Assembly: GCA_001779925.1 (NCBI GenBank)
Contig: MFEK01000016.1
Coordinates: 43,375 to 78,503, forward strand
DNA: 35,129 nucleotides
Source: Candidatus Doudnabacteria bacterium RIFCSPHIGHO2_01_FULL_46_14
GTDB taxonomy: Bacteria > Patescibacteriota > Doudnabacteria > UBA920 > 2-01-FULL-46-14
Reading direction: 5' to 3'
The notes beneath the pieces are model-generated. The model was not told where the DNA came from and ran no database searches. It saw nothing but the letters and a program-made list of their open reading frames with translations. Positions 4,356 through 9,657 of the stretch are shown here, in pieces. A program made the position numbers and the translations under genes. Within the stretch, counting starts at the first letter, position 1, and every line of letters begins with the position of its first letter.

Positions 4356-5864
4356 CTAAACTTCACTCTTTGGGCGGAACATTAGGGCTTCTGCCACATG
4401 GTTCATGCGAATTTGCGGACAATCGTCCAGGTCGGCAATCGTTCTGGCAAGTTTTAAAACCCGGTGGTAAGAACGTGCTGAAAGATGCTGGCTCCCTACC
4501 GCATTTCGCAGGATGAGAAGCCCCTGGTCGTCCGGCCGGCAGAACTCTTTGATCTCCTTTATGCCCATTTCCGAATTGGTTTTGCCTGCCCGCGCTATCC
4601 CGCGTTTGCGCGCTGCAATAACCCGGGCGCGGACCGCAGCCGAGTCCTCCAGCTCGGTTTCATCCTCGATCTTTTCAAAGGACAAGCGCGGTACCTCCAC
4701 ATGCAAATCAATGCGGTCCAAAAGCGGACCGGAAATCTTTTTTTGGTAACGCAAAAACTGCGTAGGCGAGCAAACGCAGGTTTTTTCCGGGTCCCCGGAA
4801 AATCCGCACGGACAAGGGTTTTGCGCGGCCACCAGCATAAATTTTGCCGGAAACAAGACGCTCCGCGATGCTCTGGCCACATTGATAATCCCGTCTTCCA
4901 GAGGCTGTCGTAGGCTCTCTAAAACATCGCGATGAAACTCGGGAAATTCGTCAAGAAACAAAACCCCGCGGTGCGCCAGGGTGATTTCCCCGGGCCGCGG
5001 ATCAGCGCCCCCGCCCACGAGCGCGATCCCTGAAGCCGTATGATGGGGGCTGCGAAACGGCCGGCTGCTGATGAGCCCCTGTTTGCCGGGCAAAAGCCCC
5101 GAGATACTGTAAATTTTTGTGGCTTCCAAAGCTTCGCTCTCAGAAAGCCGGGGCAAAATCGAGGCAAGCGCCCGGGCAAGGAGTGTCTTGCCAGAGCCCG
5201 GCGGGCCAGACATGAGGACATTGTGGCTCCCTGCCGCCGCAATTTCCAAAGCCCTTTTGGCCAGCTCCTGCCCGCGGATGAGCTTGAAATCCCAGGCTGT
5301 AACCGGTTGTGGCTCTTCCACCGAATCCTTTTGTCTTTGAAAAGTTTTTATTTCGGAAAACCCGGAAAGCATTCGCAAAGCAGCGCCAAGGTTTGCTACA
5401 GCCACCACCGTGATGCCAGAAATGAGAGACGCCTCATAAGCATTCTCTTCCGGCACAAAAATCGTATTAAAGCCCCGCTCTCTGGCTGCTTCAGCAATTA
5501 CCAAGACCCCGGGAACCGGCCGAAGAGCGCCGTCCAGAGCCAGCTCCCCAATAAACAGCTTGCCTTTCGGATCAAAATCCAGCTGCTCAGAGCTCAATAA
5601 TATGGAAATTGCAATGGGCAGATCATAGTGAGTGCCGATTTTCGGCAAATCAGCTGGCGCGAGTTTTACCGCGACCCGGCTTTTGGGAAACTGGGTGCTG
5701 GAATGTTTGAGCGCGGATTTCACGCGCTCTCGAGACTCTCTGATGGCGGCATCCGGCAAACCGACAATGATCGTGGCCGGCAAACCGGAGGAGATGTCGG
5801 TCTCTATTTCTACTAATTCGGCGGATAGTCCTATGACTGCGGCTGAGTATATTTTTTGAAGCAT
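4356..5864 (-). CDS. comM: YifB/ComM family Mg-chelatase-like AAA+ ATPase
   Basis: 502 residues, the usual size. The N-terminal Lon-protease-like domain (about 1-170) contains VEIETDISSGLPATIIVGLPDAAIRESRERV. The AAA+ Mg-chelatase domain follows: Walker A GPPGSGKTLL (220-229), Walker B VLFLDEFPEF (301-310), sensor region AAQNPCPCG, and a C-terminal helical domain with HLSARSYHRVLKLARTIADL. ComM is known as a hexameric helicase that drives branch migration during natural transformation; YifB-like proteins are common in CPR bacteria, which often keep competence genes. It may work with RecA, encoded about 5 kb away. It starts at ATG 5864 and its stop is just upstream of the galU promoter. Confidence 0.93.
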   Translation of the reverse strand: MLQKIYSAAVIGLSAELVEIETDISSGLPATIIVGLPDAAIRESRERVKSALKHSSTQFPKSRVAVKLAPADLPKIGTHYDLPIAISILLSSEQLDFDPKGKLFIGELALDGALRPVPGVLVIAEAARERGFNTIFVPEENAYEASLISGITVVAVANLGAALRMLSGFSEIKTFQRQKDSVEEPQPVTAWDFKLIRGQELAKRALEIAAAGSHNVLMSGPPGSGKTLLARALASILPRLSESEALEATKIYSISGLLPGKQGLISSRPFRSPHHTASGIALVGGGADPRPGEITLAHRGVLFLDEFPEFHRDVLESLRQPLEDGIINVARASRSVLFPAKFMLVAAQNPCPCGFSGDPEKTCVCSPTQFLRYQKKISGPLLDRIDLHVEVPRLSFEKIEDETELEDSAAVRARVIAARKRGIARAGKTNSEMGIKEIKEFCRPDDQGLLILRNAVGSQHLSARSYHRVLKLARTIADLDDCPQIRMNHVAEALMFRPKSEV

Positions 5865-5879
5865 TGCTAAAAATTACAA

Positions 5880-5962
5880 ATAAATCTCAAATTCAAATTT
5901 CGAATTTTGGTCATTGGATTTTGGAATTTGTTTGAGATTTGGTATTTGGGATTTGGGATTTA
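5880..5962. repeat. Low-complexity AAATTC/AAATCTC dispersed repeat
   Basis: Runs of AAATCTCAAATTCAAATTTCG and, on the other side, TTTGGGATTTGGGATTT make an AT-rich simple text with internal inverted copies. It supplies the end of the lspA reading frame (last 15 or so codons), giving the peptide tail KSQIPNTKSQTNSKIQ. Confidence 0.65.
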
Positions 5963-6321
5963 AATAATAACAATACCCCTACCCATATCATTATATCTGC
6001 CAAATTCAATGTTGCGAAGCCAATATCAATAAAATCCCTAACGTATCCAAAATAAATCCGGTCAAACAAATTAGAAAACGCGCCGCCGAGAATCAGCGCG
6101 AATCCCATGGACGTTTTCCGGAAATAAAATAAATACAGGGAAATAAAAACCACTAAACACAAGGTCACAAAATAGAGATCAAAAAACCCCGGCAAGTTTA
6201 TGGCAAACGGCAGACCGGAGTTTTTTACGATTCTATAATTTTGCAAAGAAAGAAAAAATTTTATGGCTTGATCGGCAGCGACAAAAACAGCGATCGAAAA
6301 AATACTACTCAGCTTTGTCAT
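5911..6321 (-). CDS. lspA: Lipoprotein signal peptidase (signal peptidase II)
   Basis: 136 residues with four membrane helices. Family motifs: DQAIKFF (17-23), NSGLPFAIN (34-42), GGAFSNLFDRIYFGYVRDFID (79-99) with catalytic Asp96, and NLADIMI (106-112) with catalytic Asp109. It removes the signal peptide from diacylglycerylated prolipoproteins in the membrane; the solute-binding lipoprotein at 1961 is a likely client. The start overlaps the end of the dksA-like gene by 17 bases, so translation is probably coupled. The last 15 or so residues (after LLLLF) are polar and encoded by a dispersed repeat, so the native end has probably been replaced or extended. Confidence 0.93.
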   Translation of the reverse strand: MTKLSSIFSIAVFVAADQAIKFFLSLQNYRIVKNSGLPFAINLPGFFDLYFVTLCLVVFISLYLFYFRKTSMGFALILGGAFSNLFDRIYFGYVRDFIDIGFATLNLADIMIWVGVLLLFKSQIPNTKSQTNSKIQ

Positions 6322-6646
6322 GCGCTACGCAATTCTCTGCTTCTGGAACCGCGGCGAGTCGGGCTTCGGGAATTTCTTCGCCGCCAACTTTGCAGAGTCC
6401 GTAACTGCCGTTATCAATTCTTTGGAGAGCGGCAATGACGCGGTTCAGCTTTGGCTCCAGATCATGCTCTTCGGCAATGTTTGTTTCGTAGGCCGCAACC
6501 TCGGCGGCATTGTCTTCTTCCGAGTTTCCAAAATCCGGATACTTGGGCTGACCGTCTTTGTCTTCCACGCGCGCCAGCAAGCTCTGCAAACGCGTTCTCT
6601 CCTGCTCCAGCAGCTTCTTGTTTTTTTCGATGAGTGTGTGATTCAT
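6305..6646 (-). CDS. DksA/TraR-family protein with incomplete zinc finger
   Basis: 113 residues from ATG 6646. The N-terminal half is a charged coiled coil (IEKNKKLLEQERTRLQSLLARVE), the middle has the DFGNSEEDNAAEVAAYE acidic segment, and the C-terminus follows the DksA zinc-finger layout YGLCxxGGEEIPEARLxAxPxAxxC. Only two of the four usual cysteines remain (Cys85, Cys106); the other positions are Gly88 and His109, so zinc binding is doubtful or partial. DksA-type proteins bind the RNA polymerase secondary channel and tune initiation with ppGpp. The gene precedes and overlaps lspA, and follows a terminator at 6694-6752. Confidence 0.8.
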   Translation of the reverse strand: MNHTLIEKNKKLLEQERTRLQSLLARVEDKDGQPKYPDFGNSEEDNAAEVAAYETNIAEEHDLEPKLNRVIAALQRIDNGSYGLCKVGGEEIPEARLAAVPEAENCVAHDKAE

Positions 6647-6656
6647 ATGCACGTAT

Positions 6657-6684
6657 TGTATAGTAAACAAAATGACGAACGCAA
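6657..6684 (-). promoter_or_regulatory. Possible promoter of dksA-like/lspA pair
   Basis: On the minus strand TTGCGT, 16 bases, TATACA. It lies between the terminator at 6694 and ATG 6646, so the mRNA would have almost no leader. Weak -35, hence low confidence. Confidence 0.35.
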
Positions 6685-6693
6685 GCGGACAAT

Positions 6694-6752
6694 AAAAAAA
6701 GGCTTATGCACGATAGAGCTAAATTAAAATAATATATCTCTGGGCATAAGCC
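6694..6752 (-). terminator. Rho-independent terminator
   Basis: On the minus strand GGCTTATGC (6744-6752) pairs perfectly with GCATAAGCC (6701-6709) and is followed by seven T (6694-6700). The loop is long (34 bases) but contains its own small AGAG/CTCT helix. It ends the structured RNA described at 6694-6936. Confidence 0.8.
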
Positions 6753-6936
6753 CCCCTTCAGAACAGGGAGGCTTTGCGCCAACCTGGATCCCATTTCGCG
6801 AACCTGCGAATGGGGTGCAAATTGGCACAAAGCTTCACTACGTCGTCCTAAAGGAAATCTTGTATTATCCAACCTGTTTACAAGGAACATCTCCTGTACC
6901 GTTCTTATGGTCCGATGAATCGGGCCTCAAACATTT
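6694..6936 (-). ncRNA. Candidate structured non-coding RNA, family not recognised
   Basis: No convincing protein is encoded. On the minus strand, from 5' to 3': a hairpin CCGA-TTCA-TCGG (6912-6923); a 6-bp stem CTTGTA/TACAAG (6879-6884 with 6859-6864) whose loop holds AACAGG; a long stem of 12 pairs (6822-6833 with 6771-6782) topped by an 8-pair stem with one bulge (6806-6813 with 6791-6799); then CCTGTT (6762-6767), which can pair with the AACAGG loop (6873-6878) as a long-range pseudoknot; then the terminator. One pair in the 12-pair stem is G-U on the minus strand and would be a C/A mismatch on the plus strand, which supports the orientation. It does not match what I know of tmRNA, RNase P RNA, SRP RNA or 6S RNA. 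It could be a free RNA or a leader acting on dksA-lspA. Confidence 0.65.
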
Positions 6937-7188
6937 TTGTTTATTTTGGTTTTTTTAGGGAAACCCTAACTGTTATAACTATTTTGGTTATAACGCTTTC
7001 ATTTTGTTTTTGTTTTTTCGAGATAGGCGGGTTGGAACGCCTGCGACGAACAGTAAGTCAGGAGGGGGAACTCGAAATTCGTATATCGAGCTGCCTCTCA
7101 TGGCGACTGTTTGTCTTTTGTTTTGATTTCAAGGAGCAAGTTTCAATTTCTAGAACAATAATAGCAGAAATTTCGCAGTTTGTCAATG
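6937..7188. other. Non-coding stretch with inverted repeats
   Basis: No supported gene. It holds two copies of GTTATAAC (6972-6979 and 6987-6994, each itself palindromic), a TTAGGG/CCCTAA hairpin (6955-6969), a GGCG/CGCC hairpin (7026-7041) and a CTCGA/TCGAG hairpin (7071-7090). On the minus strand this is downstream of the exonuclease gene and upstream of the structured RNA, so it may be its 5' part or promoter region. A 37-codon frame at 6988-7101 (minus) has no ribosome-binding site and is not called. Confidence 0.4.
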
Positions 7189-9657
7189 CTAAGTTTTGGC
7201 TTCAGTTGGCGAAAATTGCGTATTCGGTGCTGTGGATATTAAAAAATCCGGAAATTCCTGAAAATATTTCATGAATGACTGGTCATAGTCAGTGAGGATC
7301 CGCGGATCGAGAATAAATACCTGTTTGCCGGCTCCCGGGGCAGCCAAAAAGCTAACCAGGGTTCGGTGAATCTGGTTTATGGCGCGCGGCAGTACAGCAT
7401 CCACAAAGGCGCTGTGGTCATCCAGTCCCAAAAGGGGCGGTTTGGAACCGCGCGCTTCAAAAGGCAGCTTGAAGATCACAAGGTTCTGAAGCTCGGGGAG
7501 GATTTTCCAATGTTTCACGAGCGCATGAAGCGTTAAAAGGAGGATCAGATTCTTTCCGGAAAAATTTTTCAGCTTTTTTTTAAGCGCGCCCACGCTGCCG
7601 GAAAATTTGTAAGCAAAAATTTCTGTCCCATCTTCCATCCTAACCTGAGAAAGCGCCTGATACATCTCGGCAAGCTTGGCCTCATTCGGCAATAAAAGCA
7701 GTGTGCGTCCGGAAAAACTCCGGGCGAACGCGATTTGCTCAGGGACGCTGGAATTTTTAGAAAAAATCTTTACTGGAACGGAAATGGGTTTGATTTGCTC
7801 GAAACATTTCTCGTAAACATAATCCGCCAATCCCAGGCGCTTTTGAAAATACGCGCGCGACACTGCCGGCAGATTCGTATCAACGATGGTCATTGACGAG
7901 AAATTTTTTATGAATCCCGCCCAAACCGGTTTCAGATCTCTGGACTGAAGATTGAGATCCACAAAGTCCGCGTTAAACTTTATCCAGGAAATAGTCGATT
8001 CCTCTGAGGCAATAAAAAAAATCTCCAAAAACATACTCAGTGCAGCCAAAGCTGTTTTCAAAATTTCAAGTTCCAATTGCAATTCACGGCTCGCCAGCTT
8101 CCGCTCGCGCTCGAGATACATCTCAAATTTCTTCAGTTTGTCTTTTAATTTATGTGCCGGGTGAAACAATTTTTGAAATCGTTCCTGGTTTCGTTCACGC
8201 TCGTCAATCACCAAATTTTCGGAAAATTCTCCATCTCGTTTTAGATACACTAAATGCAGAACTCCAAAAAACAAATCAAACTCGTTTAACATTTGCCCCA
8301 CCTCTGGCGGCATTTCTCCGGTCATGTTCGGCTGGCCTTCGTCCACAGGAAAAAGCGGCGCAAACAGATTGCGCACTTTGCGCAGATTCCAGATCTGCAT
8401 TGTTGTCGCGGTAAATTCATCCTCAATCGCGGACAAATCAAATAATATTGACTTCACCGATTTACCCAATACTCCCAATCTCCCCAGTTCAAACACAGTC
8501 TCCAAATCCCCAATCCGCGGCCCGGTATTTTTTTTATTAAGCTCCTGCACATACGCACAATCATGCCGATGGCACAGATCCAGGTTCACGGATAAATAAT
8601 GCAGAAATCCAATTTCATCCGGCGACCATTTTATGCGCGACAGATCAAGGCTCGCCTCGGTTTCTCGAAGGATGAGAACTTTGGCCAGGATTTTCGCCAT
8701 CTCGGGGGACAGCGCCTCTTCGAAAAGAAGCCAGGAAAAACGCTTCTCGCAAAGCGCGAGCCTGGGATTTACCAGTTTTTGCGTCCGAAAATCTGCCAAA
8801 AAAGCGCTATGCGACAAGCCGATTACCGCATTTTCTTTGCGTGCGGCCAAATCGGCCAGCGCTTCTCCCATGCGGTTAAACGACAGTGGGTAGCAAAAAA
8901 TCGTTTTATCAGCGAAATCAAGGTCAATGACCCCCTCTTTCTTCTCCCCCTCATGAGGGGGAGATTGAGTAGGGGTCTGGACTCCTCCCCTTAAGCTAAG
9001 GGGAGGCTGGGTTGGGTTATGAACCACTGGCAAATCTTGTATCAAATCCAAAAAATTAATATCAGACTTGCCCAATACCCGCTTAACCTCTGTCTGCAGT
9101 TTCTGCGGATAATCCAAAAACGCATTCAAAATCGCAGCCAGCACCCGAGCTGTGTTCTGACAATCCACAAGAGCGCGGTGCGGGATATCTTTGAGCACAT
9201 GGTAATTTTCCGCCAAAGATTCCAGAGAATGCGATTCCAAGAGCGGCGCCAGCGTGCGCGCTACCTCCAGAGTATCCAGGGATGGATTTTTCAATCGCAA
9301 TCCCTGGTTTCGCAAATACCCCAGGTCAAACTCGACATTATGCCCCACAATGATGCTGTCGTCGAGAAATTGCGTCACTTGCTCTTTGAGGTCTTTCCAT
9401 TTCGGCGCAGTCTTTAACTCTTCTTTTTTAATGCCGGTGATGGCGAGTGCGGTCTCTGATGGCTCGATTTCCGGATTGACCAATGACGAAAACGTTTTTC
9501 CAAACTTCACCTTAACAATCTTAGTCCCCGAGCTTGTCGAGGGGCTACAATATAATTCAAACTCGCAAACACCCACCTCCATGATCCGCCCCCGCTTCAT
9601 ATCCAAATCCGTCGTCTCCAAATCCACCGCCATAAATTTTTTCTGGTATTCCGCCAT
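7189..9657 (-). CDS. DnaQ-like DEDDh exonuclease fused to a degenerate DinG-like helicase region
   Basis: 822 residues. The N-terminal third is a complete 3'-5' exonuclease domain: VDLETT (Asp12, Glu14), GHNVEFD (Asp111), and HRALVD (His160, Asp165). The rest follows the DinG (XPD-like) plan: a Cys-containing segment CHRHDC near the place of the iron-sulphur cluster, a late LPFEARGSKPPLLG and AFVDAVLPRAINQIHRTL, and VFILDPRILTDYDQSFMKYF. But no Walker A is visible, the DEAH position reads FDLSAIEDE, and the usual QGxGRLIR has become QIHRTLVS. So it looks like an active nuclease with an inactive helicase body. Two dispersed repeats are translated in frame (residues 37-45 and about 211-241). 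The upstream region carries the palindrome also found before the PaaX/Cas2-like gene. Confidence 0.8.
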   Translation of the reverse strand: MAEYQKKFMAVDLETTDLDMKRGRIMEVGVCEFELYCSPSTSSGTKIVKVKFGKTFSSLVNPEIEPSETALAITGIKKEELKTAPKWKDLKEQVTQFLDDSIIVGHNVEFDLGYLRNQGLRLKNPSLDTLEVARTLAPLLESHSLESLAENYHVLKDIPHRALVDCQNTARVLAAILNAFLDYPQKLQTEVKRVLGKSDINFLDLIQDLPVVHNPTQPPLSLRGGVQTPTQSPPHEGEKKEGVIDLDFADKTIFCYPLSFNRMGEALADLAARKENAVIGLSHSAFLADFRTQKLVNPRLALCEKRFSWLLFEEALSPEMAKILAKVLILRETEASLDLSRIKWSPDEIGFLHYLSVNLDLCHRHDCAYVQELNKKNTGPRIGDLETVFELGRLGVLGKSVKSILFDLSAIEDEFTATTMQIWNLRKVRNLFAPLFPVDEGQPNMTGEMPPEVGQMLNEFDLFFGVLHLVYLKRDGEFSENLVIDERERNQERFQKLFHPAHKLKDKLKKFEMYLERERKLASRELQLELEILKTALAALSMFLEIFFIASEESTISWIKFNADFVDLNLQSRDLKPVWAGFIKNFSSMTIVDTNLPAVSRAYFQKRLGLADYVYEKCFEQIKPISVPVKIFSKNSSVPEQIAFARSFSGRTLLLLPNEAKLAEMYQALSQVRMEDGTEIFAYKFSGSVGALKKKLKNFSGKNLILLLTLHALVKHWKILPELQNLVIFKLPFEARGSKPPLLGLDDHSAFVDAVLPRAINQIHRTLVSFLAAPGAGKQVFILDPRILTDYDQSFMKYFQEFPDFLISTAPNTQFSPTEAKT
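8935..9027. repeat. Two family A repeats inside the exonuclease gene
   Basis: Two adjacent hairpins: CCCCCTCATGAGGGGG with tail, and CCTCCCCTTAAGCTAAGGGGAGG-type sequence with a GGGTTGGGTT tail. They are read in frame as VVHNPTQPPLSLRGGV and QTPTQSPPHEGEKKEG, a Pro/Gly-rich linker between the nuclease and the helicase-like part. Confidence 0.8.
9523..9549. repeat. Family B repeat fragment inside the exonuclease domain
   Basis: CCCCGAGCTTGTCGAGGGG is an imperfect palindrome matching family B. It is translated in frame as CSPSTSSGT in the loop between the first two strands of the exonuclease fold. Confidence 0.65.

Follow-up and report, generated by a model that had tools for sequence, protein, structure and literature searches.

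The window, by which we mean the whole stretch of 35,129 nt that was analysed, carries on its minus strand a gene for an 822-aa protein with an exonuclease domain (7189-9657) and, further downstream, dksA and lspA (6670-5911), and the gap between them is occupied by an RNA gene on the same strand, to which we give the working name DLR (dksA-lspA-linked RNA). The original prediction had placed at 6694-6936, between the exonuclease gene and dksA-lspA, a structured RNA of unassigned identity that contains a pseudoknot and ends in a terminator of its own. Both the placement and the headline proved right, as the RNA shows covariation, matches no known family and is conserved far beyond the strain. 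The interval given for it is a real 3′ half, but it leaves out about 215 nt of the 5′ half, in which half of the conserved core lies; neither the promoter nor the long-range helix nor the distribution was part of that picture. The features are as follows.

7158-7186, minus strand: sigma-70 promoter of the RNA gene, TTGACA (7186-7181) followed after 17 nt by the extended -10 TGC-TATTAT (7163-7158)
6694-7151, minus strand: whole RNA gene, about 458 nt, from the promoter-derived start and the alignment of family members
7065-7099, minus strand: 5′ hairpin region, from inspection and folding; its sequence differs among relatives
7048-7064, minus strand: 5′ strand of helix P1, CUCCUGACUUACUGUUC, from covariation and RNAalifold
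7025-7042, minus strand: hairpin H1, AGGCG-UUCCAACC-CGCCU, with the kissing bases UCCAACC at 7036-7030, from covariation and kissing-pair tests
7002-7018, minus strand: A-rich single strand AAAAAACAAAAACAAAA, almost invariant across the class
6972-6994, minus strand: lineage-specific hairpin GUUAUAAC-CAAAAUA-GUUAUAAC in the variable linker, from folding and alignment
6909-6926, minus strand: hairpin H3, then an invariant ACC and a nearly invariant AYAAGA, from the covariation alignment
6891-6904, minus strand: 3′ strand of helix P1, GAACGGUACAGGAG, from covariation and RNAalifold
6859-6884, minus strand: hairpin H4, with the kissing bases GGUUGGA at 6874-6868, from covariation and kissing-pair tests
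6771-6833, minus strand: long hairpin P5, from folding and inspection; family members have a hairpin of unrelated sequence at the same place
6751-6771, minus strand: small hairpin P6, which contains CCTGTT, from comparison with relatives
6694-6752, minus strand: intrinsic terminator, a 3′ hairpin with an AU-rich loop followed by seven T
6305-6670, minus strand: dksA/traR-type gene (zf-dskA_traR), next downstream of the RNA
5911-6321, minus strand: lspA (signal peptidase II)
4356-5864: comM/yifB, following lspA

The start near 7151, and with it the length of about 458 nt, is inferred from the promoter, which agrees with the consensus at 11 of 12 positions and has a TG before the -10 element. 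Promoter-like TTGACA/-10 pairs lie 5′ of the core in 39 of the 40 homologues, and a near-consensus promoter was found in all 27 homologues that were scored. At the other end, the terminator with seven T that had been predicted is present, with GC-rich arms (6752-6738 and 6709-6701), a loop of about 30 nt and TTTTTTT at 6700-6694. Terminators are found in the family of the source genome and in some other families; a strict scan of the homologues detected no canonical terminator in most members of the other families. It may be added that a long AU-rich apical loop of the 3′ hairpin (6710-6737 in the window), often flanked by GCC and GGGCGC, recurs in every lineage inspected, L103, L144, L225, L228 and L229 among them, which suggests that this hairpin may be more than a terminator.

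On folding the minus strand of 6690-6940 we obtained -85.1 kcal/mol (z -5.0, none of 200 shuffles as good), which bears out the strong structure claimed for the interval. The plus strand also folds well (z -6.5). Folding energy thus does not decide the strand, and the minus strand was assigned from the promoter, the terminator, the wobble pairs and the direction of the homologues. The predicted long stem at 6771-6833 is likewise present, with about 16 pairs on the minus strand whose U-G pairs would be A-C on the plus strand. The core of DLR lies mostly outside 6694-6936 and ends about 107 nt before the terminator. It is organised by the long-range helix P1 (7064-7048 with 6904-6891), where CUCCUG..ACUGUUC pairs with GAACGGU..CAGGAG over about 145 nt; P1 encloses H1, the A-rich strand (AAAACAAAAAYAAAA), the variable linker and H3, and H4 follows it. 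The same helix appears in the minimum-energy folds of nine single core sequences and was predicted unaided by RNAalifold on a sequence-only alignment.

P1, H1, H4 and the kissing pair all covary. In a model-fitted alignment of 30 sequences and 29 pairs, 90.1% of the cells are paired and 139 cells are changed on both sides, values that none of 500 shuffles reached on any measure, and when the partners were slid along as a control, pairing was only 38-49%. Since fitting to the model favours the structure, we counted again on a MAFFT alignment of the core made from sequence only, with the variable linker removed beforehand. Here 90.4% of cells are paired with 117 double changes, and 0 of 500 shuffles did as well for pairing, double changes or the covariation score, while the two measures based on numbers of pairs and of types were equalled by 17 and 40 of 500. 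At one position of P1, a clade-wide A-C mismatch is seen in family f3 (L014, L033 and others; alignment columns 14 and 111, 7 sequences), with the neighbouring pairs conserved.

The loops of H1 and H4 are complementary in the source genome, UCCAACC (7036-7030) with GGUUGGA (6874-6868), and the comparative evidence shows that they would form a kissing-loop pseudoknot tying together both sides of P1. Homologues have UCUAAUC with GAUUAGA, UCUAGUC with GACUAGA, UCCAAUC with GAUUGGA, UUAAGUC with GACUUAG, UCCAGC with GCUGGA and CCCGGC with GCUGGG. Over the seven registered positions, 197 of 203 cells are paired, with double changes at positions 2-7; the register was chosen by hand and two genomes with poorer pairing in the reassignment test (G027 and G028) were left out of this count. 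When loops were reassigned among the sequences 10,000 times, the mean own-loop pairing score exceeded every reassignment, a control that ignores relatedness, so that differences between families carry the result. An alignment-free search for P1, H1, H4 and the kissing pair together recovered most copies in Candidatus Doudnabacteria (0 of 40 shuffles as good) and missed G028, most ABY1-like copies and most f3 copies, the last because the A-C mismatch interrupts the contiguous run in P1. With relaxed settings and 200 shuffles, the architecture was recovered in the Falkowbacteria locus L103 (0 shuffles as good) and in L117 (1), and, among other patescibacterial families, in L228 (0), L229 (2), L168 (2) and L144 (2); in L225 it was not. 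A pseudoknot had thus been rightly foreseen, and it uses the other half of the loop that had been named, but not with the partner proposed, which was the CCTGTT downstream (AACAGG at 6873-6878 with CCTGTT at 6762-6767). That pairing did not hold up: it has 6 pairs here and 5 in the sister species, its register is lost in the remaining two members of the family, and the CCTGTT stretch is part of a small local hairpin in the relatives.

DNA searches of whole genomes found the RNA in all four genomes of the family, with weak matches elsewhere in the order, and on reading these loci we again met the RNA ahead of dksA-lspA. The core was then described by a covariance model (R1), which matched 40 of the 44 genomes of the class at E <= 0.01, in one place each; the unmatched four comprise two genomes of 80-82% completeness and two of 89-90%. 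These matches show that DLR, as defined by the sequence model, is single-copy and near-universal in the class Doudnabacteria. An independent pattern scan of 84,980 species returned mostly Candidatus Doudnabacteria, together with one genome of Candidatus Falkowbacteria (L103) and one of other Patescibacteria (L117), in both of which the same RNA precedes dksA-lspA-comM; one further match, from a bin of Flavobacteriales (L119), failed to score as the RNA. Scanning viral contigs for the pattern gave no match. A second model (R2), run over 380 genomes of the phylum with 8 candidates scored per genome, found Doudnabacteria only, which is weak evidence against a wider spread given that number of candidates and the fact that the Falkowbacteria copy was reached only through the pattern scan. 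Low-scoring DNA matches on the A-rich tract or on short stretches (L009, L011, L012, L016, L017, L019 and L020) were judged to be due to chance, as the motif is absent from their surroundings. In many ABY1-like genomes we saw by eye promoter-started stretches upstream of dksA-lspA that are similarly laid out, with an A-rich strand and a P1-like strand pair. Their homology to DLR is only likely, since it was judged by eye and since three loci outside Doudnabacteria (L133, L142 and L152) have P1-like strands and the A-rich strand together with a tetraloop or no clear hairpin instead of a recognisable kissing H1. On the comparative evidence as a whole, homologues occur in Falkowbacteria and in at least three other patescibacterial families.

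As to known RNAs, the original prediction had recognised none, and in agreement with this a search with the 4,227 models of Rfam 15 gave no match above cut-off in the window or in the homologues, the weak matches being far below cut-off and to unrelated families. tmRNA (RF00023) resembles DLR in being a stand-alone RNA of similar length with a strong promoter, a pseudoknot, A-rich single strands and one copy per genome. We reject this identity, as ARAGORN found no tmRNA in the window, no tRNA-like ends or tag frame were seen and the source genome has its own tmRNA elsewhere (G000:C5:5322-5712, 120.6 bits). RNase P RNA (RF00010) is alike in length, in its long-range pairing and in being present once per genome; it too is rejected, there being no similarity to DLR and a separate match in the genome (G000:C6:40066-40391, E 1.8e-25, below the curated cut-off). 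SRP RNA shares with DLR the near-universal, single-copy occurrence but differs in topology, and with no SRP match in the homologues this identity was also dismissed. 6S RNA (RF00013) is likewise a housekeeping-type small RNA with its own promoter, but DLR is a pseudoknotted multi-helix RNA rather than a single long hairpin with a central bubble, and no match was obtained. GOLLD, ROOL and OLE, the large ornate bacterial RNAs that came from comparative genomics (PMC12286853), are also large and structured, whereas DLR occurs once, on the chromosome, in almost all genomes of the class. No account of such an RNA turned up in a literature search to which preprints and many subscription papers were out of reach. 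Stand-alone structured RNAs are as such a known kind in bacteria; the family appears to be new, with no relative among the known families tested.

The reading that we favour, and regard as probable on sequence evidence, is that DLR is an independently transcribed, compactly folded noncoding RNA of a new family, of the stand-alone housekeeping type and acting in trans. A promoter, a terminator, covarying P1, H1 and H4 with the kissing loop, predicted unpaired A-rich and ACCAYAAGA stretches and one copy per genome are what the comparison shows; the existence and structure of the RNA are well supported by sequence, and it is presumably transcribed, and abundantly so. It would be made constitutively at a high level and fold into a pseudoknotted scaffold, whose A-rich strand and ACCAYAAGA motif would be displayed to a single partner, or a small number of partners, in the core machinery, the candidates being the ribosome, RNA polymerase or an RNA-binding protein. 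In this manner it may work as a housekeeping ribonucleoprotein or a global regulator, like tmRNA, 6S RNA or SRP RNA. Counting against action in trans are the tight linkage to dksA-lspA, which a purely trans-acting RNA does not need, the terminator missing under the strict scan in most members of the other families and the three loci where a kissing H1 is not clear.

This linkage is also the ground for the foremost alternative, which we consider unlikely, that DLR acts in cis as a large leader of riboswitch or attenuator type, which by termination would control transcription of the dksA-lspA(-comM) operon. Of 28 loci with sufficient sequence downstream, 27 have dksA and lspA after the RNA in the same direction, and the remaining one has lspA; order and strand are the same in Falkowbacteria. 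dksA lies 182-534 nt after the core, and the terminator stands before it. Against a leader, promoter-like sequences occur between the terminator and dksA (TTGCGT..TATACA before the likely dksA ATG in the source genome, and strong ones in L129 and L130), the conserved core stops well short of the terminator and no alternative antiterminator pairing was noticed on inspection. Moreover, in other lineages whole genes stand between the RNA and dksA, so that DLR is not simply a dksA leader: an unknown gene in L223, whose RNA shares 77% identity over 401 nt with the dksA-adjoining RNA of L137; lgt in L228 and L229; and a Fe/Mn SOD gene in L224 and yraN in L225, where the RNA was recognised by its promoter, A-rich strand and position and not by the full core. 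These intervening genes, the near-consensus promoters and the terminators point to an independent unit, and the linkage is probably one of conserved gene order. In keeping with a stand-alone structured noncoding RNA, DLR has its own promoter, a covarying structure and, in the family and some others only, its own terminator.

A second alternative, in which DLR would be a known but strongly diverged housekeeping RNA, with SRP RNA and 6S RNA as the most plausible choices, seems to us improbable. Neither SRP RNA (RF00169, RF01854) nor 6S RNA was detected in the four near-complete genomes of the family (G000-G003), which leaves DLR a small chance of doing one of those jobs, and its near-universal occurrence would suit an RNA of that rank; for SRP RNA the missing match is weak evidence, as RF00169 also misses some control genomes and the RNA may only be diverged. 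Kissing loops are also known from the Alu domain of large SRP RNAs, but in DLR H1 lies inside P1 and H4 outside it, a topology that is neither that of the Alu domain nor the single 6S-like hairpin. Further, neither DLR nor its homologues gave an SRP or 6S match at E up to 1 or 0.5, the SRP S-domain pattern occurs in only 17 of 49 genomes at scattered, chance-like places and is not class-wide, and none of the SRP or 6S features testable by sequence was found in the RNA. It is highly improbable that the locus serves a short peptide, as its leader or messenger, or gives an antisense transcript, and that the structure is a by-product. On inspection, some genomes (G000, G001 and G046) have a short frame beginning with ATG after the A-rich strand, but several homologues (G003, G004 and G006) lack this ATG, conservation tracks the base pairs and some indels between close relatives have lengths not divisible by three. 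A conserved DNA element with binding sites or a promoter region, as the very strong promoter and the A-rich tract might suggest, has a negligible chance and is in practice refuted by the covariation in both alignments, with compensatory changes in helix P1 and in the pairing of two loops that lie about 155 nt from each other, by the many U-G pairs and by the loop-reassignment result.

To our knowledge, structured RNAs that are near-universal and single-copy across a whole bacterial class are very rare. tmRNA, RNase P RNA, SRP RNA and 6S RNA serve core processes, and the genomes of Patescibacteria are streamlined and keep little that is not needed. A new near-universal RNA in them points to a basic function not described before, and it seems that an entire bacterial branch carries a basic RNA that had escaped description. 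We put forward, more tentatively than the trans-acting noncoding RNA itself, that DLR may be an ancestral and probably essential ribonucleoprotein RNA of Patescibacteria (the Candidate Phyla Radiation), equal in standing to tmRNA or RNase P RNA, and that it could even have taken over a job of SRP or 6S RNA; it would have been overlooked until now because these bacteria are almost all uncultured. The defined structure, the covariance models and the landmark upstream of dksA-lspA make it searchable at once in transcriptomes of cultured Patescibacteria.

Some observations on the neighbouring genes and on other loci may be recorded. The DksA/TraR-type protein encoded at 6305-6670 (minus strand) keeps two of the four zinc-finger cysteines (CKVG...CVAH), the corresponding motif being CAQG...CMNH in L014 and CRYC...CMEC in the Falkowbacteria locus L103. 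The product of 7189-9657 (minus strand) has an RNase_T exonuclease domain and a long C-terminal part that has no Pfam match and carries a DinG-like ILDPRI at its end, and is possibly a degenerate DinG-type helicase. In L009, L017 and L019, AAAACAAAAACAAAATGAAA-like stretches stand at other places in the genomes, directly before likely start codons near 1501-1520, where they are perhaps A-rich leaders without a Shine-Dalgarno sequence.
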